Part shown: positions 6,355 through 61,961 of the stretch, piece by piece | How the letters are laid out: every line of letters starts with the position of its first letter | Position numbering within the stretch: the stretch's first letter is position 1 | NCBI GenBank assembly: GCA_040289475.1 | Contig: PSLF01000003.1 | Coordinates: forward strand, 1 to 64,000 | Direction: 5' to 3' | From: Acidimicrobiia bacterium | GTDB taxonomy: Bacteria; Actinomycetota; Acidimicrobiia; ATN3; PSLF01 | Length of the DNA: 64,000 nucleotides | Made by a program: the position numbers and the translations under genes | Notes under the pieces: model-generated | Seen by the model: only the letters and a program-made list of their open reading frames with translations | The model's database searches: none | What the model was told of the DNA's origin: nothing

Positions 6355-6387
6355 TTGACATATCCTTTTTTGTGCAGTGAAGATAAT
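6355..6387 (+). promoter_or_regulatory. Predicted promoter for the TPR/COG1478 gene
   Basis: Perfect TTGACA at 6355-6360. The -10 is less clear: GAAGAT at 18 bases, or the better hexamer GATAAT (6382-6387) at 21 bases. Either places the transcript start 25-35 bases before the TTG start at 6423. Confidence 0.45.
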
Positions 6388-6422: not shown

Positions 6423-7907
6423 TTGCGCTTCACTCGATCCCCCGTCTACATGCTGAGTACGCGATTGAGATTCGGTAAGCTTTTGAGATCGTCGGTCACA
6501 AGAACACTCGCCTCGAGCTTCGAACCACGCGAGAGTAAAGGTATCTCCGAACAGATCCGTGGCAGAAGAATATCGTTCTCGAACATACTTCGCATTTTTG
6601 AACAACTCGGCGACCCAGGGGTTGAAGCATGGTTCGCTCTCGCCGTAGACGGCGATTACGAGTTAGCAAAGAACCGAGCCGAAGATGCCCTGGCCCGTGA
6701 TCCATCCTCTAGATTCGCACACAGCGCTCTCGCTGAGATCGCTGTCTTCAGCTCCCGGTTTGACATAGCCGCCCAACACATCCAAAAAGCTATTTCTTAC
6801 AACCCTCACAACAAGTGGCTCCGCCTGACCCTAGCAGACATCTATATAGAGGGCAAGGAGCTGGAAAAGGCCATAAGTCTGCTCGAGGAATCTCAAGATA
6901 TTCCGGGGCTGGAGCGCCACGTGTATAAACGCTTGGCACGGCTCTATTACCGTATAGGCAATCTACCTGCCTCGTTGTTTTGGCAAGAAAAATTGGTGGG
7001 GCTTGCTCCCGACTACCTCGTTTATGCCTCCGATTACCTGTTGCTGGCATGGCTGCAACTGCGCGTCATAGCCGACGCTGATCAAGCCCTCGACACTCTC
7101 AAAGCTGCTGCTCAGATCTATAAACGTAATCCTCGAATAAAAGAAGCGATTCTTTGCCTGGAGAAATCCACAGCCTTAGAGACCCAAGATCGAGCTCTCT
7201 ATTTCGGAGAGGACACAGCGAAGTCTTTCCTGCCTCAGCTTTCATCCACTCAAGCCTTGAAAGTAGAGGGTTTTCCCAAAGTGTCTTGCATACCTGTACA
7301 TACGCCGCTGGTTACCATGCACACCGACATCATTTCACTCATAGACGCGGCTACTGGCACAACGAGAGAGGCGGATGACACCGTGGCGATCTCGGAGTCG
7401 GTTCTAGCCATAGCTCAGGGACGGGCGATACCACTGGAACTAGTAGACCCCGGCCCGATATCTCGATTCCTATGCAAGTTCGTGGGGAAGGAAGGACCTC
7501 TTCACAGCCCCGAGGGCATGCAAGGCGCGGTGTTCGAAGCCGGAGCCGTCAAGATTGTTGTCGCAGCAACAGCTGGTGGACTTGCAAGGCTATCCGGCAG
7601 GAAAGGTGTCTTTTACAAAATCGCTGGCCCCCGATGCGCGATGATCGACGATGTTGCCGCTTGCATGCCGCCCTTCGATCACCACCTCATACTTGGACCT
7701 TCCAATCCCGATAAGTTTGCCGAGATCGCAGCAGCGACATTGGGGTGCAGGGTGTGCGTTGTCGACGCAAACAACAAGACTGGGGCATGGGTAGTAGGTG
7801 CATCCAAAGGGGTAAATAGGACTTCGTTAGAAAAAGTATTACGTAACAACCCCGCCGGCAACGAGGACGAACAGACGCCCGTAGTTCTTATAAAAGGGTT
7901 CAAATAG
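6423..7907 (+). CDS. TPR protein fused to a COG1478 (F420-0:gamma-glutamyl ligase-like) domain
   Basis: 494 aa. Residues about 75-270 are helical tetratricopeptide-type repeats (for example AKNRAEDALARDPSSRFAHS and AAQHIQKAISYNPHNKWLRL). Residues about 285-490 look like the CofE/COG1478 fold: the start IPVHTPLVTMHTDIISLI, then DDTVAISESVLAIAQGR, LHSPEGMQ, and the late VVDANNKTGAWVVGASKGV, which parallels the VxDANDLGVxVLGAS pattern. CofE adds glutamate to coenzyme F420; here the domain may be a non-catalytic or differently specific relative. The TTG start follows GAGGAAGGA with a short 3-base gap; ATG at 6450 is an alternative. The gene stands alone between a kinase gene and the UbiA operon. 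Confidence 0.72.
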   Translation: MRFTRSPVYMLSTRLRFGKLLRSSVTRTLASSFEPRESKGISEQIRGRRISFSNILRIFEQLGDPGVEAWFALAVDGDYELAKNRAEDALARDPSSRFAHSALAEIAVFSSRFDIAAQHIQKAISYNPHNKWLRLTLADIYIEGKELEKAISLLEESQDIPGLERHVYKRLARLYYRIGNLPASLFWQEKLVGLAPDYLVYASDYLLLAWLQLRVIADADQALDTLKAAAQIYKRNPRIKEAILCLEKSTALETQDRALYFGEDTAKSFLPQLSSTQALKVEGFPKVSCIPVHTPLVTMHTDIISLIDAATGTTREADDTVAISESVLAIAQGRAIPLELVDPGPISRFLCKFVGKEGPLHSPEGMQGAVFEAGAVKIVVAATAGGLARLSGRKGVFYKIAGPRCAMIDDVAACMPPFDHHLILGPSNPDKFAEIAAATLGCRVCVVDANNKTGAWVVGASKGVNRTSLEKVLRNNPAGNEDEQTPVVLIKGFK

Positions 7908-7962: not shown

Positions 7963-9309
7963 TCAGCCAGAAAAGTACGCTGAGGCGAAGTAAGCCATTG
8001 TTAGAGCCGTACCGACGAGCCCATGAAGAGCAATGTTCTTGCTCATAGCGGGCATCAGTCCGTACGGACTGTCGTAATTGTCCCGCATCCCTCTGTACAC
8101 GACTATAGCCAAGGGCGCGGGCAACAAAGATAGAAGAGCCAACGTTGGCATCAGTCCGATGGCGACACCGATTACAACCGATAAGAATGCAGCTGCGGCC
8201 GCAATCGCGTACCCCCGAAGAATTGCTTCGCGAGAAAACCGCACAGCCACAGTATTTTTGCCCGCCAGCGCGTCGGCATTCCGATCTGGGACTTGATTCA
8301 CGTAGAGAATCAGCATCACCAGAATCGCAACTGGTATCGAGGCATAAAGAGCCTCAATTGATAGCTTGCGGGCAACCACATAATAGGACCCTGCGACGAC
8401 GATCGGTCCGAATCCCGTTGCCACAGCAAGATCACCAAGACCCCGATAGGCCAACCTGAGCGGCGGCGCGGTGTAAAAAAAGGCCAGTAAAACTCCGATA
8501 CCACCTATCGCCAGCAAAGCGGGGCCTCTAAAGACCGACAATACCACTCCGATTACACACCCCGCTACCATCAGCCCGGCCCCCCACCCCAGCATCGCTT
8601 TCTCAGATACCAGACCGTACTGTAGCACCCTTGACCCTCCGCTGTATGGGGTAGGGGTCACATTCATCTGATCCGCTCCTGAGACGCTATCGAAGTAGTC
8701 GTTGAGCATGTTCAGCCCGATATGAACCAGAGACGCACCGATCAGAGCTACAGCAGTGAACCACGAAGCCGAGTATCCCTGCCAGCGGGCGACGGCAGCT
8801 CCAAGGAGCACTGGTATTACTGTTGCCGTAAGGAACGGAGCTCTGGTGGCGAGAAACATTTTCCATAGAAGAGGAAGCCGGGGCTGAATCTCCTTACCCT
8901 CCGTACGCGACAGCGACTCGAGATAAGCCCGGCCTCGACCCACTGAACGCTCGCAGTATTCGAAGAAGGGCACGACCGATTCGTCCCACCCACTAATTCG
9001 CTCGGCTTTGACTTCGAAGACATCCCCCTTCGGCTCGAGCCTGCCCTCTACAGTCAGGTATCTTCTGTCGACGTAGCCAAAGTCTTCGACGGGCTTTATG
9101 TGACTGAAAATGACAGTCACGCGGCGCCCTGGGTGCATATCCGGCGGCCTGGAAATCGGATCCAGGACTACCGAGGCCTCGGAGTCTCCCGAACGAAAAT
9201 CGGCTGGTACGCTCATCGGGTAGTCGTCATCGTCAATGTAGGTGACTATCGCCTTGGCGTACCCTTCCAAATCGATTGCGTGCGATCTAGAAGGCGCTTC
9301 CACCATCAT
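7963..9309 (-). CDS. UbiA-family prenyltransferase (MenA-like) with N-terminal FMN split-barrel domain
   Basis: 448 aa. Residues 1 to about 140 resemble the pyridoxamine-5'-phosphate oxidase-like split barrel (AIVTYIDDDDYPMSVPADFR, YLTVEGRLEP). From about 155 onward is a UbiA membrane enzyme with eight or nine hydrophobic segments and both Asp-rich motifs: NDYFDSVSGAD and DRNADALAGKNT. The closest functional group by motif is 1,4-dihydroxy-2-naphthoate polyprenyltransferase, a menaquinone step. Start: ATG 9309 makes an ATGA overlap with the upstream stop; GGAGGG lies just ahead. ATG 9306 and GTG 9324 are alternatives. Last gene of a three-gene coupled operon. The fusion is unusual, and the actual prenyl acceptor is uncertain. 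Confidence 0.85.
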   Translation of the reverse strand: MMVEAPSRSHAIDLEGYAKAIVTYIDDDDYPMSVPADFRSGDSEASVVLDPISRPPDMHPGRRVTVIFSHIKPVEDFGYVDRRYLTVEGRLEPKGDVFEVKAERISGWDESVVPFFEYCERSVGRGRAYLESLSRTEGKEIQPRLPLLWKMFLATRAPFLTATVIPVLLGAAVARWQGYSASWFTAVALIGASLVHIGLNMLNDYFDSVSGADQMNVTPTPYSGGSRVLQYGLVSEKAMLGWGAGLMVAGCVIGVVLSVFRGPALLAIGGIGVLLAFFYTAPPLRLAYRGLGDLAVATGFGPIVVAGSYYVVARKLSIEALYASIPVAILVMLILYVNQVPDRNADALAGKNTVAVRFSREAILRGYAIAAAAAFLSVVIGVAIGLMPTLALLSLLPAPLAIVVYRGMRDNYDSPYGLMPAMSKNIALHGLVGTALTMAYFASAYFSG

Positions 9310-9776
9310 GACTCCCTCCGCCACACGAACACGCGTTTCGGCGTGATTTCAATGATCGCCCGCTCCCAAAAGAGCGGCATTGCAAAGCGCTTCTTCAGAA
9401 ATACGTCAACAGAGGGTTCCTTCTGCCTCCACAGCGGTAGTAGCCTCATCCATCCTTCGTGAAGGTCATCGTCGATCACCGCCGCCTCTCCCTGGATTGT
9501 TGCTCCAGCAAGCTCGGTCCCAGATACAGCGCTTGGATCAGAGATGCTTACGGCCACCTTTGGGTTAGCTTTTATATGCTCCAGTTTTTTGCTGAAAAGG
9601 ACGCTAGAAGTCATATAGATCTTCTCGCCGTCAAAGAGAGGAATCAGCGGGTACGAAACAACGCGTCCTCCTCCGGCTATCACCGAGAGCTCCGCCACGA
9701 GAGCTCGTATCAGCAGGTGTTCCACTTCCGGCGAAACCTCTGATAGCCGGGTCGGAGAAACGGTCTCGTCGTTCAT
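9306..9776 (-). CDS. Pyridoxamine-5'-phosphate oxidase-like FMN-binding protein
   Basis: 156 aa. Split-barrel fold of the PNPOx/F420-dependent reductase superfamily: VVSYPLIPLFDGEKIYMTSS, LEHIKANPKVAVSISDP and ATIQGEAAVID are the typical strands. Such proteins bind FMN, F420 or haem and often carry out reductions; the true substrate cannot be read from the sequence. The ATG at 9776 follows AAGGAGGTG with 8 bases between, and overlaps the stop of the regulator gene upstream (ATGA). An upstream in-frame extension lacks a ribosome-binding site. Its neighbour UbiA carries a second, diverged split barrel, suggesting the two act in the same pathway. Confidence 0.85.
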   Translation of the reverse strand: MNDETVSPTRLSEVSPEVEHLLIRALVAELSVIAGGGRVVSYPLIPLFDGEKIYMTSSVLFSKKLEHIKANPKVAVSISDPSAVSGTELAGATIQGEAAVIDDDLHEGWMRLLPLWRQKEPSVDVFLKKRFAMPLFWERAIIEITPKRVFVWRRES

Positions 9777-10345
9777 TTGCCCGACACCTCCTTGTTCGGT
9801 CGGGATTGCTGATCCCGCGCTCTGCGGGAGTGTATCGACACCACAGCCCCGGCTCGTCGCGCCTCGTCTGGCTCCCACGTTTTTCCTGAACTGAATGCTG
9901 CCATCCCGCTCTCGACGGCGGATGCGAACTGTTCGAGAGCCTCTACTTTCGCCCTGATTTGATCGGAGTATGAGCTTTCCTCCAGAGCACGCTTAGTCTC
10001 TTCGACGGTGGCAATAACCTGGCGCAAGTTCCACCTAAAGCGCCTCTCGACGATTTCCTGGAGAACTCGCCAAAAGTCCGAAGCTCCCTCGTAGTGATCC
10101 TTTCTAGAACCGGGGACAGCAACCCGTCGGACAAGCTGCCATTCGAGAAGGGGCTTCATGTTGACCGAGACGCTACTTTTGGCAATTTGAAGAGATTCAG
10201 CGATCTCTTCAAGGTCCACTGGGGCTTGTCGCAAGTAGACGAAGGCGAATAGTCTCCCTTGCGCTTGAGTAAGTACGCCAGAGGTCGCCGCGGCCACTCC
10301 TATCCCGTCAATGAAAACTTTTTCAGCTCGGGACAAAATCGCCAC
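9773..10345 (-). CDS. GbsR/MarR-type winged-helix transcriptional regulator
   Basis: 190 aa. The N-terminal half has a winged helix-turn-helix of the GbsR type (LTQAQGRLFAFVYLRQAPVDLEEIAESLQIAKSSVS...WQLVRRVAVPGSRKDHYEG), where the conserved GSRKDHYE wing is the clearest family mark. The rest is a long alpha-helical region (about residues 85-150) probably used for dimerisation, then a charged tail. The GTG at 10345 is preceded by GGAGGTGA. It heads the FMN-protein/UbiA operon by ATGA overlap, so it probably controls its own operon. The ligand is unknown. Confidence 0.85.
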   Translation of the reverse strand: MAILSRAEKVFIDGIGVAAATSGVLTQAQGRLFAFVYLRQAPVDLEEIAESLQIAKSSVSVNMKPLLEWQLVRRVAVPGSRKDHYEGASDFWRVLQEIVERRFRWNLRQVIATVEETKRALEESSYSDQIRAKVEALEQFASAVESGMAAFSSGKTWEPDEARRAGAVVSIHSRRARDQQSRPNKEVSGK

Positions 10346-10595: not shown

Positions 10596-11990
10596 CTATC
10601 GGCGTAAAATCTCTGCTGCGACTTCTCCGACCATCTCCAACGCGGAGCCGGACAGCCCCTGGTGTACAGGGATGCCCAAGAGCCTTTCCCTTGCCGCTCG
10701 AGTATCGCTTATGAATTGCTCCGGGGTTGACCGATGTGGTACAGGCCATACCTCGACTACCCTTACTCCCCTCTCGAAAAAAGCCGCGACTGCCGCTCTT
10801 CGGTCAGGGCACTCCACCGGCAGAAAGAGCGGAACTGTCCCCGGTGGCAACTCGTGCAAGCCCTCTGGAACGAACTCACCTAGGTCAAATTCCCAAACGA
10901 GCCTGGTGTAGTTGCCGCGACGCGCCGCTGCTACAGCAGATGGCCACTGGCCCGCGAGCACAAAATACGAGAGCAGAGCCGCCCGAGAAGCAGCCGATGC
11001 CAAAGCGGATTCCGAAATAGTCCATGCGCCCTCGTTTTCATCGACAGCGAATATGGCTCTGGACAACTCGCCGTCCAATGCTGCTTTCTCCGACCTCGAC
11101 AACTGTGACACTGCTCGGGCAGCAACGGTGGCTATCCACCGATCCCCTCCGGCAATAGAGAGAAGTAATTGAGAAGCCAAGGTACGGGCGTTGGCCACCG
11201 AGAATGTGCGCGCACGTCCGAGCGGCGCCGCTGCAGCACCCACCTTGCCGTACAGCCACAGCGCACCTCCATCGAGAGTTCCTAAGCTCTTGCGGATCGA
11301 AAAGATTGCTGCTGTGCCTTTGGACCCAATTGCCGATCCATCTGGATACTTTGAATACAGGGCTTGAGCAGCGTCTTCAATTACCATCCCAAGGCGCGTC
11401 GCCCCGCCACCGAATACGCCTCCTTGCTCGGTGCCCAACTCGTCTAGACGGACACCATCTCGAGCATCAGAATCGCTTCCCGACTCGACTCGACCGTTCT
11501 CTGGCGGAGGCCATATCCCCTCTACTATCGGGGGAAACCCGAAAAAGGAAACGACATAGCAAACGCACGACCGGCAGGAAGATTCGTAAAAACTCTCGCA
11601 ATCCACTGTCAGATCTGGCTTCACCCGGTAGAAGTTAGGCTTTAGACCAGCGCGCAGCAACGCCTCTATTTCGGAGCCACAGTGATATGACGGTACCGCC
11701 ACCGAGTGCGGACCACCACAGCGACAATTCAAAGCAAGAGCACGGCCCGCTAGGTAGACAGCCCCGCGTCCAAGATGTAGTAGGTACGAGTTTCCGCGGA
11801 ACTCGGGGACTCGCACGTTGTCAGTGAGATCGTAAAAGTGGGAGCGACCAAGGAGAAGCTGCGGATCAATGGATCCGCGCTCGAAAAAGCCACACAGGGC
11901 CTGGGGTTGGATCAGCTGAAGAAAGGCTCCCCGCAGCGCCGATCTCACGTCAAATGGGGGGTATGTGGTGACGAGCGAGGCTTGTCTCAA
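10596..11990 (-). CDS. DegT/DnrJ/EryC1-like PLP aminotransferase
   Basis: 464 aa. Fold-type I PLP enzyme resembling sugar aminotransferases: the cofactor segment VIEDAAQALYSKYPDG has the Asp that holds the pyridine nitrogen, and FSIRKSLGTLDGGAL carries the likely Schiff-base Lys followed by the glycine run. The N-terminal part (SVAVPSYHCGSEIEALLRAG) matches the substrate loop. It is longer than the usual 370-400 residues because of a hydrophilic Gly/Asp/Glu-rich insert (about 167-205). The start overlaps the murJ stop (ATGA), so it is translated together with the lipid II flippase. A role in making an amino sugar for the envelope is an inference; the substrate is unknown. Confidence 0.8.
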   Translation of the reverse strand: MRQASLVTTYPPFDVRSALRGAFLQLIQPQALCGFFERGSIDPQLLLGRSHFYDLTDNVRVPEFRGNSYLLHLGRGAVYLAGRALALNCRCGGPHSVAVPSYHCGSEIEALLRAGLKPNFYRVKPDLTVDCESFYESSCRSCVCYVVSFFGFPPIVEGIWPPPENGRVESGSDSDARDGVRLDELGTEQGGVFGGGATRLGMVIEDAAQALYSKYPDGSAIGSKGTAAIFSIRKSLGTLDGGALWLYGKVGAAAAPLGRARTFSVANARTLASQLLLSIAGGDRWIATVAARAVSQLSRSEKAALDGELSRAIFAVDENEGAWTISESALASAASRAALLSYFVLAGQWPSAVAAARRGNYTRLVWEFDLGEFVPEGLHELPPGTVPLFLPVECPDRRAAVAAFFERGVRVVEVWPVPHRSTPEQFISDTRAARERLLGIPVHQGLSGSALEMVGEVAAEILRR

Positions 11991-13747
11991 CCCGAGACTC
12001 GGCGTCCCACTGGGGCCTCTTCGACGTCTGCGAAGAGTTCCTTAGGATTTAGAATCCTTTTGATTATCGCTAGGTCTTCCATTCGCGTAACCACTCCCCA
12101 CAAAACAAATGCGGCCAAAATGGCAGCGCCGCCCACCGATAGCTCGACAATTCTCGACAAGCTAACATCTCCAATAGCTTCGATCCACGGGCGGAGCTTA
12201 GCCAAAACGATCCATCCCGCCGCAGCGCAGAGCGCGCCCGCAAAGAATATTTGCAACAGGGGAGTTGCCAGCCGCCTGCCGACCTCCCTCTGATGTAATC
12301 GGCGAAACAACACCCAGCCCGACACTGCCGAACCTATGAAGTAGCCCAAGCTGTGCGCCAACGCTAGACCGGCAATCTGAAAACGCGGATACAAAACAAA
12401 GTCGAGAGCCACTGTGACGCCGACTTCTAGCAAATTCAACACAAAGGGGGTTTTCGAGTCGTGAATCGCATAGAAGCATCGAACTGTCAGCACCCAGAGC
12501 GAGAAAGGGATAATCCCGACCGCGAAAGCAGCCAATGTCGAAGCGACCAGTTGAGAAGAGTTCGCAGACATGACGCCCCGCTCCAATAACAGGGCGACAG
12601 CCGGGCGGCCGAGCACCAAATAGGCAGCGGTCATCGGCGCCAACAAAACGCTCACTGCCCTTACTGCGCGGACCAGCCGTCGGGCTAAAAGATTGACCCG
12701 TTTCTCCACCCACAATCCCGCGATGCTCGGCACGACGGCTGTGATTATGGAAATCGCAACCAACCCGATAGGAAGCTGAAAGAAAGCGAACGCAATGAAA
12801 TAGGCCGTAGGTCCGCCTTGCACTCCGTTGGCGAGCACCAGCGCGATCGCGAATCCGATTTGATTGGTAACGACAAAACCGAAAATCCACGAAGAGAGGC
12901 GCAACAGCTTGGGCCAAGAGCTTTGCCCGAGGTGCGCGAATCCCCGTCGAATACTTATCGAAAGTGGCAATCTTTTTACAGCAGGCCACTGAGCCGCCGC
13001 CATCGCAGCAACTCCGCCAGCAGTACCCAGAGCCATGATGAACATCCCGAGTGGCGGCGGCGTTCCGGCAGCAGCGATTTGTTTCGGCGTGATCTTGGCA
13101 AAAACTAGGAAAGTAGCAATCACCACTATGTTGTTGGCAATCGGCGAAAAGGCCGTCGCGACAAAACGGTGATAAGAATTGAGCAGTGCCGCTGTTACGG
13201 CTGTGTATCCGTAAAAGACGATCTCTGTAGCGAAGAACCTAAAGAAAAACGTCGCTTGATACTTTTGCACTTCCCTCGTGTCTTCTCGGAGTCGAAACGC
13301 GAAAAGATTTATCAATAACGGGGCAGCAACGATTGCTACGAAAGTGACGAGTAGGAGAGCTCCCATGGTTCCGACAAAAAGCGACGAGACTCGAGCCGAT
13401 GCCTCTTGATCGTCGCGAGCAGTCTTTATGTCTTCGACAAGAACAGGGATGAAAACGGATGTGAGCACTCCTCCCAAGATCAGCTCGTAAACCACGTTGG
13501 GCAATGTGTTGGCTATGTTGAAGGAGTCAGCAAGCCTGCTTTCTGCTACCCCAATCGCGTAAGCCATTGCTGCGAGGCGACCCAAACCCGTGACACGCGA
13601 AAGGAAAGTTCCCACAGCCATTATTAGGGCGGGACGGCTCAGCGATCCCTTCCTCGAAGGCTCTGGCCATGCCGAAGGCGATGAATCGGTCGTCGAGGCC
13701 AGTTCGACAACTCTCTTTTCATCTATTGAAGGTGTGCCATTCAGCAT
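11987..13747 (-). CDS. murJ: Lipid II flippase MurJ/MviN
   Basis: 586 aa. It moves lipid II across the membrane for wall synthesis. The MviN pattern is clear: GTFLSRVTGLGRLAAMAYAIG, ADSFNIANTLPNVVYELILGGVLTSVFIPVL, and 12-14 hydrophobic segments up to about residue 555. The first about 35 residues are polar and Ser-rich, and a short cytoplasmic tail ends the protein. No actinobacterial C-terminal pseudokinase is present, unlike mycobacterial MviN. The ATG at 13747 has no good Shine-Dalgarno sequence. It is coupled to the downstream aminotransferase-like gene and divergent from the thiolase-like gene. Confidence 0.93.
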   Translation of the reverse strand: MLNGTPSIDEKRVVELASTTDSSPSAWPEPSRKGSLSRPALIMAVGTFLSRVTGLGRLAAMAYAIGVAESRLADSFNIANTLPNVVYELILGGVLTSVFIPVLVEDIKTARDDQEASARVSSLFVGTMGALLLVTFVAIVAAPLLINLFAFRLREDTREVQKYQATFFFRFFATEIVFYGYTAVTAALLNSYHRFVATAFSPIANNIVVIATFLVFAKITPKQIAAAGTPPPLGMFIMALGTAGGVAAMAAAQWPAVKRLPLSISIRRGFAHLGQSSWPKLLRLSSWIFGFVVTNQIGFAIALVLANGVQGGPTAYFIAFAFFQLPIGLVAISIITAVVPSIAGLWVEKRVNLLARRLVRAVRAVSVLLAPMTAAYLVLGRPAVALLLERGVMSANSSQLVASTLAAFAVGIIPFSLWVLTVRCFYAIHDSKTPFVLNLLEVGVTVALDFVLYPRFQIAGLALAHSLGYFIGSAVSGWVLFRRLHQREVGRRLATPLLQIFFAGALCAAAGWIVLAKLRPWIEAIGDVSLSRIVELSVGGAAILAAFVLWGVVTRMEDLAIIKRILNPKELFADVEEAPVGRRVSG

Positions 13748-46490: not shown

Positions 46491-47366
46491 TTATTGACCG
46501 GGAATATCCGGCGCCGTGGCCGGCCTAGGTGGCTCTGCATCACGGACTCCGAAGTCATCTATGACTCGGGTAGCCGAGGTGGGATGGCCACCCTCTCTTG
46601 GAGGAGCCACTCGGGGTTGAGGCGGAGGCGGAGGTTCTTGTCGGCTAGACTCTCGCTCTACCCCCCCAGACGGAAAATTGGGACGAGGGACAGCAGGCGG
46701 AACCATAGGTTCGGAAGGCTGTTGTGGTCGCGACTCTTCTGCGCCGCGTGATTCGGAGCCAGGCTGGCCGGGAGAGTGCGGTGCTTGAGCCACCACGGGG
46801 GGCGCAAGCGGTACGGGCGCTGCCTGGGTCGCTCTGAGGGATTGAGCGGACGGAGTGGGTGCTTGTGCCTGGGGTCGCTCTGAAGATATCGCTTCTGCCC
46901 GCTGCAATACTGCGAGAAAGTCGTTTATTACTTGGGCAATCTTGTCCGTGAAATCTTGGTAGTACTGACGCAGCGCTTCAATATCAGCCTCAATGAGCTG
47001 GCGCTGTTTTTGTAGGTGCAGCTCCATCTCTCTAACGCGTTCAGCTGCGCGCCTCTCAGTTTCTTGCGCCTGCGCCTCGGCACTCGCTACCAAATCTCTG
47101 GCCTTGGCCTGGGCTTCAGCCACGGTTTCGTCTGCGGTCCGCTGTGCGACTTGGAGGGTGCGCCGAATTATCGCCTCCGACTCGCGCTGCTCTGCTAGTT
47201 GCTCCTCCAACGACTCGTTGCGTGCGGCAAGCTGACGAAGGCGGGCATCCATGTTCCTCAATGTCGCCGCCACCCGATCGAGGAATTGGTCGACAACGTC
47301 CGGTTCGTACCCCTTGCGACCCTGTGGAAAGCGCACCTGTTCGACGTCAGAGGCAGTCACATCCAT
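46491..47366 (-). CDS. divIVA: DivIVA/Wag31 polar growth protein
   Basis: 291 aa. The N-terminal DivIVA lipid-binding domain (VEQVRFPQGRKGYEPDVVDQFLDRVAATL) precedes a long coiled coil (about 35-165), which forms oligomers at curved membrane. The C-terminal about 120 residues are Pro/Gln-rich and low in complexity. In actinobacteria this protein organises polar wall growth. Its place with yggT, sepF and ftsZ is the standard order. The ATG has only a weak ribosome-binding site. Confidence 0.93.
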   Translation of the reverse strand: MDVTASDVEQVRFPQGRKGYEPDVVDQFLDRVAATLRNMDARLRQLAARNESLEEQLAEQRESEAIIRRTLQVAQRTADETVAEAQAKARDLVASAEAQAQETERRAAERVREMELHLQKQRQLIEADIEALRQYYQDFTDKIAQVINDFLAVLQRAEAISSERPQAQAPTPSAQSLRATQAAPVPLAPPVVAQAPHSPGQPGSESRGAEESRPQQPSEPMVPPAVPRPNFPSGGVERESSRQEPPPPPQPRVAPPREGGHPTSATRVIDDFGVRDAEPPRPATAPDIPGQ

Positions 47367-47597
47367 TTCTGTCTACTCGCTATCCGTCTCTTCACTTTTC
47401 AATTAAGCACGGGCCAATTACCCCTCAGTACTCCGCCCGGAGAGATTCGACAAGAAGCCGCCCTAGAAAGAATACGACATACCGACAACTTATTAGTGAT
47501 AGACAATCCGAAATCCGAACGCACTGGCGTCTTGTCAGTCGGTAGAAGTTGTTTCCTCAGCTTTAGTAGTGTGACCTACAGACAGAACTGGAAATCG

Positions 47598-47873
47598 TTA
47601 GAAAAGACGCGAACAACCCAATATCGCAGGGACGACAACGGTGAGCACTAAAAGCGGAATCAGCACAGTAAAGTCAAAAGCCGCCTCGCCGATTCTAACG
47701 GGCTTGAACACCCTTTGAAGGGGGCGCATTATCCAACTCGTAGAAGCCTCGCAAAACTTCTGTACAGAATAAAGTCGAGAATCCGGACCTATTCTGAACC
47801 ATGAAAAAAAGATCCACGCGATGAAGATAAAGCTGTAGATCCGGCTAAAAGAGCAGAGAATTCTCACCGTCAC
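47598..47873 (-). CDS. YggT family membrane protein
   Basis: 91 aa with two hydrophobic segments (about residues 8-30 and 66-88) and the YggT-type middle, VQKFCEASTSWIMRPLQRVFKP, equivalent to the LxxxxxPxLxPxRrxxP stretch of the family. Between sepF (24 bp upstream) and divIVA (231 bp downstream), its usual place. The function is not clear; it has been linked to envelope or division processes. Confidence 0.88.
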   Translation of the reverse strand: MTVRILCSFSRIYSFIFIAWIFFSWFRIGPDSRLYSVQKFCEASTSWIMRPLQRVFKPVRIGEAAFDFTVLIPLLVLTVVVPAILGCSRLF

Positions 47874-47897
47874 TAGCTGCCTCTCTATTTTCCGACT

Positions 47898-48497
47898 CTA
47901 AACGTCGTACCCGCTTGCGCGTAGGCGGTCTTTTTCATCTTCGGGAATCGATGCATGAGCGGGGAGCAACAAAAAAGCGTGATCACCTATCTTTCGCATC
48001 CTTCCTCGAAGAGCAAAAGTCAGGCCGCTAGCGAAGTCCACTATCCTGCGGGCTGTGTCTCGCTCAACTTCGCTTAGATCGACTATGACAGGCTGGGACT
48101 GACGAAACCGTTCCCCTATCTCTTGTGCGTCGGCGAAACCCTCGGGTTCTATCACTTGTACTCGGGTGTCAGTGGGGGGAAGCATTCGCACTCCGCTACC
48201 CGGATCGAACCCGGCGGTTTCCACGCCAGAAGGTATATAAGTGGACGCAACATACTCGCTCGAAGAGGGCTCGGTGCGCACCGTTACTCTGGGGGGTTCC
48301 GTGTAGTGACCCGCCTCTCCGTAGCGAACGTCCTCCTTGCCACCATAGCCACTAACCTGACCAGCGGTGTCATAACCCCCGCCTAAAGTGCGAGCGTCAC
48401 CTGCCGATCCGGGGGGCTCGCCATAAGAAATGCCCTCCTCGGGCCCCTCGTCTTCGAGACCCAACCAGATCAAAGTTTTCTTCCAAAACGAGGACAT
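47898..48497 (-). CDS. sepF: Cell division protein SepF
   Basis: 199 aa. The N-terminal amphipathic anchor (MSSFWKKTLIWLGL) is followed by a Gly/Tyr/Glu-rich linker and the C-terminal DUF552 domain (VQVIEPEGFADAQEIGERFRQSQPVIVDLSEVERDTARRIVDFASGLTFALRGRMRKIGDHAFLLLP), which binds the C-terminal FtsZ peptide. SepF tethers FtsZ to the membrane in actinobacteria that lack FtsA. ATG 48497 directly behind AAGGAGGGAG; a start nine codons further upstream lacks a ribosome-binding site. Confidence 0.94.
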   Translation of the reverse strand: MSSFWKKTLIWLGLEDEGPEEGISYGEPPGSAGDARTLGGGYDTAGQVSGYGGKEDVRYGEAGHYTEPPRVTVRTEPSSSEYVASTYIPSGVETAGFDPGSGVRMLPPTDTRVQVIEPEGFADAQEIGERFRQSQPVIVDLSEVERDTARRIVDFASGLTFALRGRMRKIGDHAFLLLPAHASIPEDEKDRLRASGYDV

Positions 48498-48542
48498 TCT
48501 CCCTCCTTGCAAGGGCTGAGACAATGGCCCGAGTTCCAGCGC

Positions 48543-49361
48543 TTAGCTAGTATCAGGCTCGAATATAGCCCTTCCGATCCTAACCATGGTGGCGCCTGCA
48601 GATATTGCCACTTCGAAATCGTCGCTCATCCCCATGGATAGTTCGGATATGCACGGGTCTACAGTCTCGATTAGGTCGTCCCTGATTCGTGCCAGCTTTC
48701 CGAAGTACTTGGCGTGTTCGTCGGGAGTAGCACCCTGTTTGGACATGCACATCAGTCCTAGGGGTCGTATGCCGAGCTCTAACACTTTCTCAACGAATGG
48801 TCGGGTGGTTTCTGGTGCGATGCCATGCTTTTGTGGCTCACCGGTGACATTTACCTCGACGAGTATTCCCACAGAGCAACTAGATCCTTCGACGCTGAAT
48901 GGAAAAGTACTACCCTCCCTCTGAACGGAGGTCGTTCTTTTGGCGATGTCCTCTGCCAAAGCCAGAGAGTCCAGGCTGTGGATGTATCTCACGAACTCCA
49001 AAGCCTTTGAAACTTTGTTTCGTTGAAGGTGTCCTACCATGTGAAAGATCGGTATGTTTTCGTCGAGGCTCGCATCTTCTGAATATCGGTTTGTCGATGA
49101 CAAAGCGTTTCCTACACCGCTAGACAGCGCTTTCCACTTTGCGTGAGCTTCGAGGACTCTATTCTCTCCGATGTCAACAACCCCCTGCGCCAAGACGGCC
49201 TTGATTTCTTCCAGCCTTCTCCCTTTTGTTACTACGACTAGTCTTATCTCGTCCGGTTTCCTTCCAGCGCGAAAAGCAGCGTCCGCGATGCGAGCCTGGA
49301 CAGCAGCAAGTCCTCCTGTCACTCGCTCTACTGTGTTGGGCGAGAAAAACGTACGACCCAT
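48543..49361 (-). CDS. YggS/PLPBP family PLP-binding protein
   Basis: 272 aa. Alanine-racemase-like TIM barrel: IRLVVVTKGRRLEEIKAVLAQGVVDIGENRV with the PLP-binding Lys, FHMVGHLQRNKVSKALEFVRYIHSLDS, PLGLMCMSK and LSMGMSDDFEVAISAGATMVRIGRAIF. No racemase activity is expected; the family keeps PLP and amino-acid pools in balance. Typical neighbour of sepF and pgeF. An insert (about residues 85-100 and 150-162) makes it slightly longer than usual. Confidence 0.94.
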   Translation of the reverse strand: MGRTFFSPNTVERVTGGLAAVQARIADAAFRAGRKPDEIRLVVVTKGRRLEEIKAVLAQGVVDIGENRVLEAHAKWKALSSGVGNALSSTNRYSEDASLDENIPIFHMVGHLQRNKVSKALEFVRYIHSLDSLALAEDIAKRTTSVQREGSTFPFSVEGSSCSVGILVEVNVTGEPQKHGIAPETTRPFVEKVLELGIRPLGLMCMSKQGATPDEHAKYFGKLARIRDDLIETVDPCISELSMGMSDDFEVAISAGATMVRIGRAIFEPDTS

Positions 49362-49373
49362 GTCCGAGTATCT

Positions 49374-50174
49374 TTACTTCTCGTCGTTCTGTTTCTCCTC
49401 GACGATCCAGGCGATAAGAGCCTGGCGACCCGTTCGGGGGCCATCTCTTCGGTAAGAGTAAAGCTGATCTGAACAGGCCGTGCACGGCCCCAACGAGATG
49501 ACGCCTAGAGGGCGACGATTCCGAGATTCAAGCGCGCGGACCACGGCGGCGTGCATATCCAAGCTGGACCGGTTGCGATCTACGCAGTTGCGGCCAAACC
49601 GCTCTTCGAATAGGTCGAGCCTATCTTTTTCCACACGGTAACAACACGGCCCGATACTTGGACCGGCTATCGCCCAATCGATCCCTCCGGTTTTCTCTTG
49701 TAGTTGAGCTGCAGCTGCCTCCACAACTCCGCTCACAAGTCCTCGCCACCCTGCGTGGACCACGGCAATTCCCGGAGGATCGCAGCTTCCCATCGCAAGC
49801 GGAACACAATCGGCGACGAATATAGCTACCGGTGTCAAAGCAGCAGTGGTAACTATCGCATCGGCTTTGAGTCCTGCGAGATTTCCAAGCTTGCCTGGCT
49901 TTTCAGGGGCGGGAGCCGTAGAACACTTGAACCGCTGCCAATCTTTTGGCGCATCGGCGACGGCGTTTCCATGGACTTGGACTACCTCAAACCATTGGTG
50001 CCCCACACCTAGCTTTTGCGCGATCAGGTACCGGTTTTCCAAAACGGCTTCGGGCACATCTCCTACCCTAAATGAGAGATTTGCCCCACAGAACACGCTT
50101 CTGCCCGACCCGTCTCGCCGATCCGTATATACGACCCGTGCTCGCCCTATAGAAAACTCGTGCAGTACGGCCAT
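49374..50174 (-). CDS. pgeF: Purine nucleoside phosphorylase/laccase-domain protein (PgeF/YfiH)
   Basis: 266 aa. DUF152 fold with the zinc ligands VQVHGNAVAD (His), FVADCVPLA (Cys) and AVVHAGWRGLVSG (His). Family members phosphorolyse purine nucleosides or cleave wrongly built peptidoglycan precursors (PgeF). The latter suits its place between ftsZ and yggS. The start TTAGG-ATG at 50174 has no normal Shine-Dalgarno spacing and TAGAGT lies 9 bases ahead, so the mRNA may be leaderless. Confidence 0.9.
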   Translation of the reverse strand: MAVLHEFSIGRARVVYTDRRDGSGRSVFCGANLSFRVGDVPEAVLENRYLIAQKLGVGHQWFEVVQVHGNAVADAPKDWQRFKCSTAPAPEKPGKLGNLAGLKADAIVTTAALTPVAIFVADCVPLAMGSCDPPGIAVVHAGWRGLVSGVVEAAAAQLQEKTGGIDWAIAGPSIGPCCYRVEKDRLDLFEERFGRNCVDRNRSSLDMHAAVVRALESRNRRPLGVISLGPCTACSDQLYSYRRDGPRTGRQALIAWIVEEKQNDEK

Positions 50175-50358
50175 CCTAAGACACTCTAGGCCCTGTCCGA
50201 AGCCGTAGAGATCCGGACCCGGCGATAAGGTTCCATCTGTTTTTTGAAGGGGAATCCCAGCCCCTCATCTCCTTCACGATGAGTCCTGTACTGTAGCACC
50301 TGCCAGCACTGCAAATAACCAAGGCGCGCTGTCGAAAAATCGCTTCAAGGAAATGTTT

Positions 50359-51465
50359 TCAGCGAAGAAAAGAGGGGATGTCCAAGTCGTCGCCTGATAC
50401 GTCGTCGAATAGCTCGGAAAGTGCGCCCTTGGTCTCAGATTTGGCCTTGGGTTTACCCCTGTCCCTAGGACGATCCTCGGCGGCAAGTTCTGCTTTGTCT
50501 TTCGAGGAAGCTTGAGCCTCGAATCCAGCCGCGATTACGGTTACCCGGACCTCCTCGCCCAGCGCGTCGTCTATCACGGCGCCAAAGATGATGTTGGCAT
50601 CTGGGTGGGCTGTCGCCGAGACAATGTCGGCTGCCTCGTTGACTTCGAACAAACCGAGATCCGATGGGCCCGATATGTTCAACAGAATCCCTCTTGCCCC
50701 CTCTATCGAAGACTCTAGCAGAGGACTGGAAATCGCAGCCCTCGCCGCTGTCTGAGCTCTTCCCTCTCCGCCAGCCTGCCCAATGCCCATAAGCGCTGAT
50801 CCGGCGTTCGACATGATCATCTTAACGTCGGCGAAGTCCAGATTTATGAGGCCGGGCGTAGTGATGAGGTCAGTAATTCCCTGAACTCCTTGGAGGAGAA
50901 TCTCGTCTGCCATCCGAAAAGCAGAAAGCATCGACGTCTTCTCGTCCGCCACCTTGAGCAGGCGGTCGTTCGGTATAACTATGAGCGTATCGACTTTTTC
51001 TTTGAGTCGTGCTATGCCCTGCTCAGCTTGAACCGACCTCCGCCTTCCCTCAAAAGCAAAGGGTCTGGTGACCACTCCAATCGTGAGCGCCCCTAAAGAC
51101 TTGGCGATCTCGGCTACCACCGGTGCTCCGCCAGTTCCAGTGCCTCCTCCTTTGCCGGCAGTGATAAAGACCATGTCGGAACCCCGAAGGATTTCCTCGA
51201 TCTCGTCCCTGTGAGCCTCCGCAGCCTCGCGTCCGACCTCCGGATCGGATCCGGCTCCCAGACCCCGAGTAAGGTCTCGGCCAATATCCAGTTTTATGTC
51301 GGCATCTGACATCAAGAGAGCCTGGGCGTCGGTGTTGATTGCTATGAACTCGACCCCCCTAAGCCCGGCATCGATCATCCGGTTCACTGCATTGACGCCG
51401 CCACCGCCAATGCCCACGACTTTGATTACGGCGAGATAGTTCTGCAGAGTCGAACCCGATGCCAT
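50359..51465 (-). CDS. ftsZ: Cell division protein FtsZ
   Basis: 368 aa. Tubulin-like GTPase: [20 protein letters not shown], the T3 loop, tubulin signature [19 protein letters not shown], and [17 protein letters not shown]. The C-terminal conserved peptide [10 protein letters not shown], which SepF binds, ends the protein after a Lys/Glu-rich linker of about 30 residues. ATG behind AGGACTAGGA. Downstream of ftsQ with its own promoter in the 255-bp gap. Confidence 0.97.
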
Positions 51466-51632
51466 ATCCTAGTCCTCGCTTGTCCTACGACCCCCAGGCC
51501 TGCGCGCGTCAGACCCCGGGTGCTCCTAGTGCATTCGTTCTACGTTGTCAGATTACTTTCACCGCCCCTGGTAGAACCCTCAACTTCAGCTTGATGTTTA
51601 GAGTTATGTCAAGTTAACCTAATTGCTGAGAC

Positions 51633-51659
51633 TTTATACCCCGCAAACCCGCGTGTCAA
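51633..51659 (-). promoter_or_regulatory. Predicted ftsZ promoter
   Basis: On the minus strand a perfect TTGACA (51659-51654) and TATAAA (51638-51633), with a short 15-base spacer. The leader to the FtsZ ATG would be about 160 nt. A second TTGACA (51612-51607) follows without a good -10. Confidence 0.5.
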
Positions 51660-51720
51660 GCACCTCCCAACGTCCCATGAATCAAGCTGGTATCCAAACT
51701 ACCCATCGAAAAGTCAACGC

Positions 51721-52473
51721 TCACGCTCGCTCAAGGGCGGGGGCACGTGGAGCTACTACGTTGTATGTTTTAACGCGCCATCCCTCTGCTACAGCTCTCT
51801 CCTGCATTGCCCGTAGCGCCCTGCCCTTTTCCTCTAGATCCGATGTGTCCCCAACTCTTACCTCGCTGCCGACAGCGGTAACCAAAAACAGGATCCCTCC
51901 CCTTGCGCCGCCTAGAGTGAAAGCTTCTTTGCTCCACCGCCCCAGTACCCCAGCGCACCACATAACTTGGAAGGCATCTACCGAGGCCTCTCCCAAGGAT
52001 ACGGTCGATATCTCACCCGTGAGCTCCAGAATCCCAGGTGGCGGCAGGTCGGTAATTTCGAAGGGGACTCCTCTGACATCGAACAACGTAATGCCTCTTG
52101 GAGTCCGCACAAAGCCACCTGGGGACCGCCGAAAAACCTCGACCGTTAGCGATCTTCGGAAATAGTTTTTTCGTACCGCCACACGCTCCACCCACGCAAT
52201 CTTTTCAATCCGCTGGGCAAGCTTTCCAGAATCAGTCCACAGTATCGAAGAGCCGACCAAGTCGTGCACCCTATCGAGCTCGGGATCCACTTTCCCCTCG
52301 GCCCCCTTGACTTCCACGTCAGCTATACGAGCCAACGGACTGAAAGTTACACCAATGACAGCTAGCACCGCGAGGGATGAACAAATCACATACGTCAGCC
52401 GAAATCGTCGCTTGCGAGATAGCTCCTTTCTGATCTTTTCAGGCCTTGCAGGTTTTGGCGGACTCTTCGACAC
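51721..52473 (-). CDS. ftsQ: Cell division protein FtsQ (POTRA)
   Basis: 250 aa. Basic cytoplasmic N-terminus (about 28 residues), one membrane helix (LTYVICSSLAVLAVIGVTF), a POTRA domain (ADVEVKGAEGKVDPELDRVHDLVGSSILWTDSGKLAQRI) and the beta domain. It links early and late division proteins at the septum. GTG start after AGGGTGAG, 9 bp from the murB stop. Confidence 0.88.
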   Translation of the reverse strand: MSKSPPKPARPEKIRKELSRKRRFRLTYVICSSLAVLAVIGVTFSPLARIADVEVKGAEGKVDPELDRVHDLVGSSILWTDSGKLAQRIEKIAWVERVAVRKNYFRRSLTVEVFRRSPGGFVRTPRGITLFDVRGVPFEITDLPPPGILELTGEISTVSLGEASVDAFQVMWCAGVLGRWSKEAFTLGGARGGILFLVTAVGSEVRVGDTSDLEEKGRALRAMQERAVAEGWRVKTYNVVAPRAPALERA

Positions 52474-52482
52474 AGTTCTAGC

Positions 52483-53466
52483 TCACCCTAATTTCGGACG
52501 AGTAGACCACAGTTCGGCTGCGATGTCTCCGAAGTCCCCCACTAGTCGGATTTCTGGCTCTAGCAGCACTCCAAAGCGGTCAAAAACTCGCCGCCGCACC
52601 ATTACCATTAGCGCAACAACATCGGAAGATTTAGCACCCTCTGATGCAACGAAGAAGTTCGCGTGCTTAGAGGACACCTCAGCTCCGCCAACTCGCATTC
52701 CCTTGCAACCTGCTTCGTCTATGAGACGTCCAGCCGAGTTGCCTGGTGGATTTTTGAAGACAGAACCCGCACTCGGAATGCCCCCTGGCTGATTGTCCCT
52801 GCGCCACCTCGAAATCTCGTTCATGCGCTCTCGGATCTCGTCGGGATCCCCTCGACCGAGACTAAAGGTTGCCTCAATCACAATCTCTAGCGGGCTGAGC
52901 TTCGAAGTCCTGTAGGCAAGACCGAGATCGGCTACCTCGATATCTTTGGGTCCTGAATCGAGGTCGAACACCCGCGCCGAGGCGAGGACTTCTTTGATCT
53001 CGCTGCCATGTCCTCCCGCATTCATTCTCACGGCCCCACCCACACTGGCAGGGATACCGACGCCAAACTCAAGCCCCAAATAGCCTCGCTCTCCAGCCCA
53101 GCGAGCCAGCATCGGAAGAGCAACGACCCCACCCGCCTTCACGCCGCTTCTGTCGGAAAGCTCATTGAAATAGTTGAAGCCCTCCCCTAATCGGATCACT
53201 ACTCCGTTAATCCCGGCATCGGCGATCAAGACGTTAGACCCACGACCTAAAACAGTGACATTCATCCCGGAAAAGTGGAGCAAAGCTTCTCGGAGGATTG
53301 CCAGGTCTCTCTCAGACTCAGGCTGTACATAAACCTCCGCAGCACCTCCTAATTTGTAAGTGGTGTGGCGCGAGAGGGGATATGAGCCGGCCACCTTGCC
53401 AGTAAAATCGCCGGCGCGTCGGCGTGCTTCCAGTTCCAGCAGAAGCTCTTTTGCGCCCTTCCTCAA
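52483..53466 (-). CDS. murB: UDP-N-acetylenolpyruvoylglucosamine reductase
   Basis: 327 aa. FAD-dependent second step of UDP-MurNAc formation. FAD-domain patterns: PLSRHTTYKLGGAAEVYVQP, VTVLGRGSNVLIADAGINGVVIRLG, VGIPASVGGAVRMNAGGHG with the substrate-binding loop, and PSAGSVFKNPPGNSAGRLIDEAGCKGMRVGGAEVS with the catalytic Ser region. It is of the shorter type found in Gram-positives. TTG 53466 with GGGAG about 10 bases upstream; part of the coupled murC-murB-ftsQ run. Confidence 0.95.
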   Translation of the reverse strand: MRKGAKELLLELEARRRAGDFTGKVAGSYPLSRHTTYKLGGAAEVYVQPESERDLAILREALLHFSGMNVTVLGRGSNVLIADAGINGVVIRLGEGFNYFNELSDRSGVKAGGVVALPMLARWAGERGYLGLEFGVGIPASVGGAVRMNAGGHGSEIKEVLASARVFDLDSGPKDIEVADLGLAYRTSKLSPLEIVIEATFSLGRGDPDEIRERMNEISRWRRDNQPGGIPSAGSVFKNPPGNSAGRLIDEAGCKGMRVGGAEVSSKHANFFVASEGAKSSDVVALMVMVRRRVFDRFGVLLEPEIRLVGDFGDIAAELWSTRPKLG

Positions 53467-53472
53467 CGCGTG

Positions 53473-55071
53473 TTACTCCCTGCCTTTCGCAGAGTGACTC
53501 CTCGAATGCTTTCGAACGCTATCCAGCATGATCGGCACGGATGCGGTGACGTCACCTGCCCCCATAGTTACCACCACGTCTCCCATCTGGACCTCACGGG
53601 TCACAGCTTCGACGAGCTGACGCCTGGAGGGGACATACTGGACTCGCAACACAGCACTAATCGTTCTTGCTTCGTCAGCCACCAGTCGACCGGTTACGCC
53701 TGGAATTGGATCCTCCCGCGATCCGTATACCTCGGTGACGAAGGCAAGATCGGCCGCTGAGAGCGCGCTCGCAAAGTCACTACAGTAGCGAGCAGTACGC
53801 GTATACAAGTGGGGCTGAAATACCGCTACAACGCGTCCTCTTCGGGCTAACGCCAGTTCTCTAGCGGCCTCTAGCGTGGCTCTCACTTCTGCCGGGGTGT
53901 GTGCATAGTCGTCGTAAAAAGCCACGCCCGAGGCTTCACCCCTCCACACCATTCGCCGCTCGACCCCTTCAAATGCCTCTAGTGCCCGCCTCACGATCTT
54001 GAACTCGATCCCAAGTTCCGTTGCTACGGCTACGACCGCGGCTGCGTTGACAGCGAAGTGTCGCCCAATCAGCGGAAGACGCAGCTTATCCGGTTTTTGC
54101 GATTTAGAAATGCAAAACTCCGCCAGAGTTCCTTCCTCGGACACTTCGAGAGTTCGGACGCTAATCCCAGGACCCTCTCCTTCGCCGAAAAAGACAAAGC
54201 GGGGCACGAAGGTGCCGCCGTTCGAGTCGACAATCTGCGCATCCTTGAGCCCCAGAGCTTCCTCAGCAGACTCCAACGCCTTTATGCTCTGGCACACCTC
54301 CACAGCTACAGGATCAGAGCGGTTTAGCACCACAACCGACCTCGCCTTCGTCATAAACTCGGCGAAGGCCTCCTTGAGCCGGTCGAAGGATCCCGCCCAG
54401 TTCTCTAAGTGGTCTCTGTCGACGTTTGTAACGACAGCGATCTCTGTTTTCAACTTCAGAAAAGTTCCGTCAGACTCGTCTGCCTCTAAGACTTGCCACT
54501 CGCCGCTGCCCCAACGTGCATTCGTTCCTGCTTCGTTCAGTTCTGCTCCCACCATGAAAGATGGGTCCAGTCCAGCCTCCGATAGGACAAGAGCTAGCAT
54601 CGAGGATGTAGAAGTCTTACCGTGTGTTCCTCCGACGGAGATGGTCCTTTTCATTTCTGAAATGTGCGCGACGGCATCCGTCCTCTTGAATGTCGGAATC
54701 CCTTTTCTGTATGCCTCTTGCAGTTCGGGGTTGGATGGACGGACCGCAGCCGAGTAAATGACAGCGTCTGGAGACGCTATGTTGGAGGGGTCGTGCCCTA
54801 TCGCGCACGTCACCCCGATGCTGCGCAGACGAGTTATGACAGTGCTCTCCCTTAGATCCGATCCCGTAACCCGATAGCCTAGAGAAGCAAGGATACGGGC
54901 GATCGCGCTCATCCCCGCTCCGCCCACTCCGATCAGGTGTATAACCGATCCCGGTTGAGGAAAACGCTTCTCTTGGATACCGGGATCCGAGATCGTGCCC
55001 TCAACTCTAGGAGTAGAGTCAGAGGTTTCGGGTACTTCAGCTTTGCGCAATTTCTCCACCATCCAACTCAT
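53473..55071 (-). CDS. murC: UDP-N-acetylmuramate-L-alanine ligase
   Basis: 532 aa. Adds L-Ala to UDP-MurNAc. Mur-ligase features: GVGGAGMSAIARILASLGYRVTGSD, the P-loop SVGGTHGKTSTSSMLALVL, EADESDGTFLKL, ATP-contact NVDRDHLENW and the C-terminal domain with YDDYAHTPAEVRATLEAA and FQPHLYTRT. It runs about 60 residues longer than average, through an N-terminal extension of about 40 residues and a Ser/Lys tail. Start ATG 55071 overlaps the murG stop (ATGA); ATG 55062 is also in frame. Confidence 0.96.
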   Translation of the reverse strand: MSWMVEKLRKAEVPETSDSTPRVEGTISDPGIQEKRFPQPGSVIHLIGVGGAGMSAIARILASLGYRVTGSDLRESTVITRLRSIGVTCAIGHDPSNIASPDAVIYSAAVRPSNPELQEAYRKGIPTFKRTDAVAHISEMKRTISVGGTHGKTSTSSMLALVLSEAGLDPSFMVGAELNEAGTNARWGSGEWQVLEADESDGTFLKLKTEIAVVTNVDRDHLENWAGSFDRLKEAFAEFMTKARSVVVLNRSDPVAVEVCQSIKALESAEEALGLKDAQIVDSNGGTFVPRFVFFGEGEGPGISVRTLEVSEEGTLAEFCISKSQKPDKLRLPLIGRHFAVNAAAVVAVATELGIEFKIVRRALEAFEGVERRMVWRGEASGVAFYDDYAHTPAEVRATLEAARELALARRGRVVAVFQPHLYTRTARYCSDFASALSAADLAFVTEVYGSREDPIPGVTGRLVADEARTISAVLRVQYVPSRRQLVEAVTREVQMGDVVVTMGAGDVTASVPIMLDSVRKHSRSHSAKGRE

Positions 55072-57649: not shown

Positions 57650-57650
57650 T

Positions 57651-59225: not shown

Positions 59226-59231
59226 GCTCCT

Positions 59232-61945: not shown

Positions 61946-61961
61946 CGAAATTGAGATCTCC

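Follow-up and report, generated by a model that had tools for sequence, protein, structure and literature searches.

The protein encoded at positions 6423 to 7907 of the window, by which we mean the whole stretch of 64,000 nucleotides that was analysed, joins TPR-like helical repeats to a ligase domain with the fold of CofE, and this domain belongs to a family that is distinct from the F420 ligases, large and widespread in bacteria. The protein shows a known ligase fold in a new architecture and probably with a new substrate. The reading that we favour, to which we give slightly less than an even chance, is that of a two-module protein in which a TPR docking scaffold would hold an NTP-dependent amide ligase of the CofE fold acting on a carboxyl group of a cell-wall precursor. 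The coding sequence and its two modules are located as follows:

6423 to 7907, forward strand: TPR-CofE coding sequence of 494 amino acids, with a TTG start, an alternative ATG at 6450, and an orthologue of the same architecture in a related genome (G001)
6570 to 7229, forward strand: TPR-like helical repeats, ORF residues about 50-269 (Pfam TPR families, DSSP helix pairs, structure matches)
7284 to 7904, forward strand: CofE-fold (COG1478-like) ligase domain, ORF residues 288-494 (Pfam, hhalign, AlphaFold, structure searches and PDB profile searches)

Six to seven TPR-like helix pairs precede the CofE (COG1478) fold. Pfam TPR families covered residues about 69-235 (TPR_19, E 4.5e-12), tandem 34-residue helix pairs were found by Pfam, DSSP and structure comparison, and residues about 48-263 of the predicted model, whose numbering is the ORF residue minus 9, matched the structures of OGT, PilF and consensus TPR proteins with Z of about 15 (Foldseek, VIA-align). 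For the C-terminal domain, the PF01996 (F420_ligase) match was weak, covering residues 292-347 with an E of 7.1e-5 and 22.9 bits (below the cut-off of 25), and the NCBIfam CofE model TIGR01916 gave the protein 14 bits versus a cut-off of 180.65. Nothing useful was obtained by BLASTP of the TPR-CofE protein against the genome's own CofE, and a single-sequence phmmer search of the PDB returned nothing meaningful; the relation to CofE was visible by profiles and structure and not by single-sequence searches. A PDB search with a profile of 33 relatives yielded A. fulgidus CofE as its sole match (E 2e-5, first 70 residues), and the alignment of 81 family sequences with 15 canonical CofE sequences by hhalign gave P 93.7% and E 1.9e-7. 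The AlphaFold model, built on the 81-sequence alignment (pLDDT 85.6, pTM 0.84), resembled CofE and the FbiB N-terminal domain (PF01996, TIGR01916; 2PHN, 7ULD) over the whole domain, its residues 276-485 superposing on A. fulgidus CofE (2phn_B) with Z 15.1 and an rmsd of 2.9 A over 183 residues (Foldseek, VIA-align). Other CofE structures gave Z 14.7 (7uld) and Z 13.3 (2g9i), with rmsd of about 3 A and 178-183 residues aligned. We regard the CofE fold of residues 288-494 as settled for practical purposes. The TPR-COG1478 fusion proposed by the sequence-only reading is real, as judged from the Pfam TPR match, hhalign and the superposition on 2phn, and the structure prediction which that reading had named as a check did return a match to CofE.

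Conserved residues are given here in domain numbering, to which 287 has to be added in order to obtain the ORF residue. Fourteen positions were invariant in 81 of 81 sequences (T7, G87, G108, F110, G115, D122, P139, D161, N163, N189, P190, G192, T198 and P199). The sites on which the comparison with CofE turns are the following:

7647 to 7649, forward strand: Asp409 (domain D122), invariant in 81 of 81 sequences and aligned with the invariant Asp of the CofE AGVD motif
7764 to 7772, forward strand: Asp448-Ala-Asn450 (domain D161 and N163), with the Asp and the Asn invariant in 81 of 81 sequences
7848 to 7880, forward strand: C-terminal motif NPAGNEDEQTP, placed by global profile alignment near the CofE GKxxxxP loop

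N163 aligned with the Asp of the CofE S/T-D-T/S motif and lay 41 residues after D122, the spacing that also follows the AGVD Asp in CofE; the invariant D161 precedes N163 by two positions on the same strand. We take the Asp residues of these two CofE motifs (D109 and D150 in A. fulgidus) to be metal ligands. By sequence, the family resembles CofE in the N-terminal 60-70 residues, in one Asp of the presumed metal site and in the spacing between metal-site motifs. In contrast, lysines K52 and K56 of QKxVSKxEGR, present in 15 of 15 canonical CofE sequences, are replaced in the family, as is the FGR-x-WR segment; relative to CofE, the family has a longer stretch ahead of the IDD motif and a shorter C-terminal half. 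Because the invariant lysines of CofE are lost, the nucleotide site is at least altered; in A. fulgidus CofE it is presumably K45 that contacts GTP. Part of the FGR-x-WR segment, G153-C155 in A. fulgidus, contacts F420 (PMC10861534). As to the ligand residues of CofE, which the sequence-only reading had proposed to check, acidic or amide residues at the presumed metal-site positions are invariant, and K52, K56 and the F420-contact segment are gone; the domain as a whole is strongly conserved among its relatives. The fourteen positions held over 81 divergent sequences, including D122, D161, N163 and N189, argue for catalytic activity, and we read the active site as one that may have been rebuilt for another substrate and not as that of a dead domain.

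Relatives of the protein were patchily distributed, being present in 14 of 247 genomes of the window's class and in 24 of 296 of its phylum. A scan of the collection confirmed 402 relatives, with Actinomycetota, Caldisericota, Dictyoglomota, Bacillota, Cyanobacteria, Eremiobacterota, Armatimonadota and WOR-3 among their phyla; the family falls mostly under the curated CofE cut-offs, and we found no curated model for the wider family. Among the best 80 of the 402, which were used for detailed comparison, the front module was TPR in 32 and a membrane-anchored domain without Pfam match in 23, the latter mostly from cyanobacteria. In Syntrophomonadales the membrane-anchored domain is encoded by a separate gene directly upstream, and in cyanobacteria it is fused to the ligase domain (loci compared: L068, 9429-9983, and L102, 9452-10624). 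Further loci had asparagine synthase (AsnB) as front module, as in two reverse-strand genes for AsnB with a C-terminal CofE-fold domain (L141, 7221-9899; L142, 7300-9921), or none. A tree of 63 rows placed the TPR fusions in a single clade (support 99/94) spanning Actinomycetota, Caldisericota, Dictyoglomota and Bacillota; with one origin and a spread over four phyla, the TPR fusion is a stable architecture. The statement that CofE-like domains normally stand alone or with CofD/FbiA was too narrow, since this branch includes fusions with TPR, AsnB or a membrane-anchored domain from many phyla. A Syntrophaceticus genome and Fermentithermobacillus had further COG1478 matches in addition to their family member (G527:C41:620-2112 and G525:C1:720329-720769), which shows that more than one CofE-like type can co-occur.

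The cell-wall part of our proposal comes from gene context, for which neighbours were named by homology to reference genes or by eye unless Pfam-based. In six of six Eremiobacterota-type loci the genes ran murF-[gene]-mraY, all on one strand. In the phylum of genome G541, where 133 of 148 genomes carry the family, this exact order was present in 26 of 40 newly fetched regions, a sample taken after the mur hypothesis had been written down and confined to a single phylum whose mur arrangement was known beforehand; the other 14 regions had no wall gene within 2.5 kb. Elsewhere the contacts were scattered: a transglycosylase-murT/gatD-[gene] order (G348), a convergent murJ 14 bp away (G472), an adjoining murJ (L109), ddl upstream (L096), a PBP gene upstream (L091), and AsnB with the family gene between sepF/ftsZ and divIVA (G465). 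No close peptidoglycan neighbour was seen in cyanobacteria, Caldisericota and the non-mur Armatimonadota genomes, the last sharing no wall gene among their neighbours. Of 28 lineages, 7 had a peptidoglycan gene within 2.5 kb and 2 had one at 5-7.5 kb, a comparison biased by the fact that some references were picked from these very neighbourhoods. Overall, the mur linkage is very strong in Eremiobacterota-type genomes, scattered elsewhere, and limited to MurJ synteny in the window clade. Neighbours that may supply amines or ammonia recurred as well, namely AsnB (fused or adjacent), class III aminotransferases, DegT-like proteins and Orn/Lys/Arg decarboxylases, with a pyruvoyl-dependent arginine decarboxylase in 15 of 15 Syntrophomonadales-type loci. 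In cyanobacteria (L108, 10974-12212, forward strand), the ligase gene is followed by one for a GNAT acetyltransferase, after which come ruvX, an unnamed gene and mltG.

In the window, the two neighbours that bear on the envelope are:

10596 to 11990, reverse strand: DegT/DnrJ-like PLP protein, a neighbour in 11 of 11 actinobacterial-type TPR loci examined
11987 to 13747, reverse strand: MurJ (lipid II flippase family), named by eye, adjoining the DegT-like gene in several lineages

Within the window clade, murJ lies beyond the DegT-like gene in L047, L054, L055 and L056, and the window's own genome (G000) has the same gene order with a MenA/PPOX/MarR block inserted. This synteny with MurJ, across about 4 kb and several genes, is the sole envelope link of the window gene. 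The inserted block (7963-10345, reverse strand) comprises MenA-like, PPOX-like and MarR-like genes and is absent between the TPR-CofE and DegT-like genes of the syntenic relative G001 (L006), for which reason it looks like a lineage-specific insertion. Its UbiA/MenA-type prenyltransferase gene (7963-9324, reverse strand) encodes the domain at residues 169-415, after about 150 residues without Pfam match, and its PPOX-like gene (9309-9878) reached at best 32 bits with TIGR03618, below the cut-off. Genes for division and the cell wall, identified by eye (DivIVA, SepF, FtsZ, FtsQ, MurB, MurC, MurD, MraY, a Mur ligase and FtsI), form a cluster at 46494-63800 on the reverse strand, nearly 40 kb from the TPR-CofE gene, which lies outside the cluster, unlike the family gene in Eremiobacterota.

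F420 is very unlikely to be the substrate, because K52, K56 and the F420-contacting segment are lost and many carriers have no canonical CofE. The genome of the window contains one strong PF01996 match (215.7 bits) besides the weak one of the TPR-CofE protein; it lies on another contig next to CofD-like and nitroreductase-like genes, and no F420 biosynthesis genes stand beside the TPR-CofE gene. The sequence-only guess that the substrate is not F420 was supported in this way, and the search for a true cofE elsewhere in the genome, which that reading had proposed, was successful. A second F420-0:glutamate ligase that varies tail length would agree with the shared fold, with the canonical cofD-cofE cluster, by which F420 may be made, and with the nearby PPOX-like gene, whose family includes F420-binding members; it is nevertheless highly improbable, as that block is missing from the syntenic relative, the contact residues are lost, and Eremiobacterota, Caldisericum, WOR-3, cyanobacteria, Fermentithermobacillaceae and other carriers have no CofE of canonical strength. 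Re-use of COG1478 outside F420 has, by analogy, a precedent in Chlamydia CT611 (FolC2, TIGR04132), a relative for carboxylate-amine ligation that complements an E. coli folC mutant (PMC1971073). A folate gamma-glutamyl ligase of that kind is hardly to be expected here: FolC scored above its cut-off in 12 of 12 carriers tested, the window's genome included, and on these grounds we rejected the folate role. Unlike FolC2, the window family showed no linkage to folate, with no recurring folate genes among the neighbours seen, and TIGR04132 missed the window protein and gave its relatives 18-19 bits against a cut-off of 350. The loss of the CofE lysines and of the F420-contact segment might also indicate a catalytically dead CofE fold kept as a ligand-binding or structural module, a reading that we consider improbable since fourteen positions, some of them acidic or amide residues at metal-site positions, are invariant across many phyla, a pattern not expected of a degenerate domain.

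Peptide binding is common among TPR domains, and the sequence-only reading had suggested that the ligase could modify a protein or peptide bound by the repeats. Isopeptide formation would be permitted by CofE chemistry, and the TPR part is fused in one conserved clade; however, in most lineages this domain, its invariant residues unchanged, occurs by itself or behind other front modules. Presentation of the substrate by the repeats was thus unsupported, the choice of substrate more probably lies with the ligase domain, and we consider this alternative unlikely. Somewhat better placed, although still rather unlikely, is an amide ligase for a soluble small molecule, for instance one forming gamma-glutamyl-polyamine or another amino conjugate, for which the mur locations would be incidental. 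It would account for the recurrent Arg/Orn/Lys decarboxylases, class III aminotransferase, DegT and AsnB and for the several lineages with no wall gene nearby, but not readily for the same-strand murF-[gene]-mraY order in 32 loci of one deep lineage, nor for the murT/gatD, ddl and murJ contacts in unrelated lineages.

An amide ligase acting on a wall precursor is the simplest common denominator of fold and gene context. With GTP and two metals, CofE converts a carboxylate to an acyl phosphate; attack by an amine then gives the amide (PMC10861534). On this model, the domain would bind a nucleoside triphosphate and a divalent metal and convert a carboxylate into an acyl phosphate, and an amine would attack it to form an amide. 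Gene context suggests that the carboxylate may be carried by a precursor of the cell envelope, for which the stem peptide of peptidoglycan or lipid II, on the inner side of the membrane, is the likeliest candidate. The amine could be ammonia or a small amine delivered by the enzymes found repeatedly as neighbours or fusion partners of the family, while the TPR part would dock the ligase on a partner protein. In the type of reaction proposed, which forms an amide on the peptidoglycan stem, the family would resemble the lipid II amidase MurT/GatD, whose folds, those of a Mur ligase plus a glutaminase, are unrelated. The window's genome has MurT, so that D-Glu amidation is not missing there. Of 22 genomes of the mur-linked lineage, 21 had no MurT, which carries little weight because, to our knowledge, most diderms lack it anyway. 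A general replacement of MurT/GatD by the family was rejected, as the window's genome, G001, Syntrophomonadales and others have both.

A homologue of COG1478, qimC of Streptococcus pyogenes, lies in a cell-wall modification operon and matches CofE closely in structure (0.97 A; PMC13059722). Likened to the present family by gene setting, it is a candidate relative and places a CofE-fold protein in a cell-surface polymer pathway. Polyamines are attached to the D-glutamate of Selenomonas and Veillonella peptidoglycan (PMC10628300), and the literature searched contained neither a described non-F420 CofE family nor a named gene for a polyamine-peptidoglycan ligase. A bolder and rather unlikely proposal is that of a new class of peptidoglycan-precursor ligase with the CofE fold. 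Its gene, lying between murF and mraY, would belong to the core set of an entire lineage, and the enzyme would add ammonia or small amines, possibly polyamines, to the stem peptide, with the TPR version as a scaffolded form.

If the cell-wall reading is true, a third ligase fold would join the Mur ligases/MurT and the AsnB-type enzymes in stem-peptide chemistry, and the family would provide a candidate gene for envelope amide modifications such as polyamine attachment. The interest lies mainly in the wider family, which is large and, in one lineage, forms a core gene linked to mur genes. The family is present in cyanobacteria, Caldisericota, Eremiobacterota/Armatimonadota, Bacillota and Actinomycetota, and its weak Pfam match carries the risk that it is read as F420 biosynthesis and that genomes without F420 are credited with a step of that pathway.

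The gene had also been credited with its own promoter on account of a perfect TTGACA. The hexamer is present at 6355-6360, but the scan yielded no promoter-like site with a -10 element at 16-18 nt, against 1.4 such sites expected by chance, and the promoter claim is thus unsupported. A single-sequence search revealed no viral relatives of the TPR-CofE protein, and PHROGs gave no match to it. The syntenic orthologue in G001, a genome of the same taxonomic order, was 60% identical in the CofE-fold domain and 43% identical in the TPR part.
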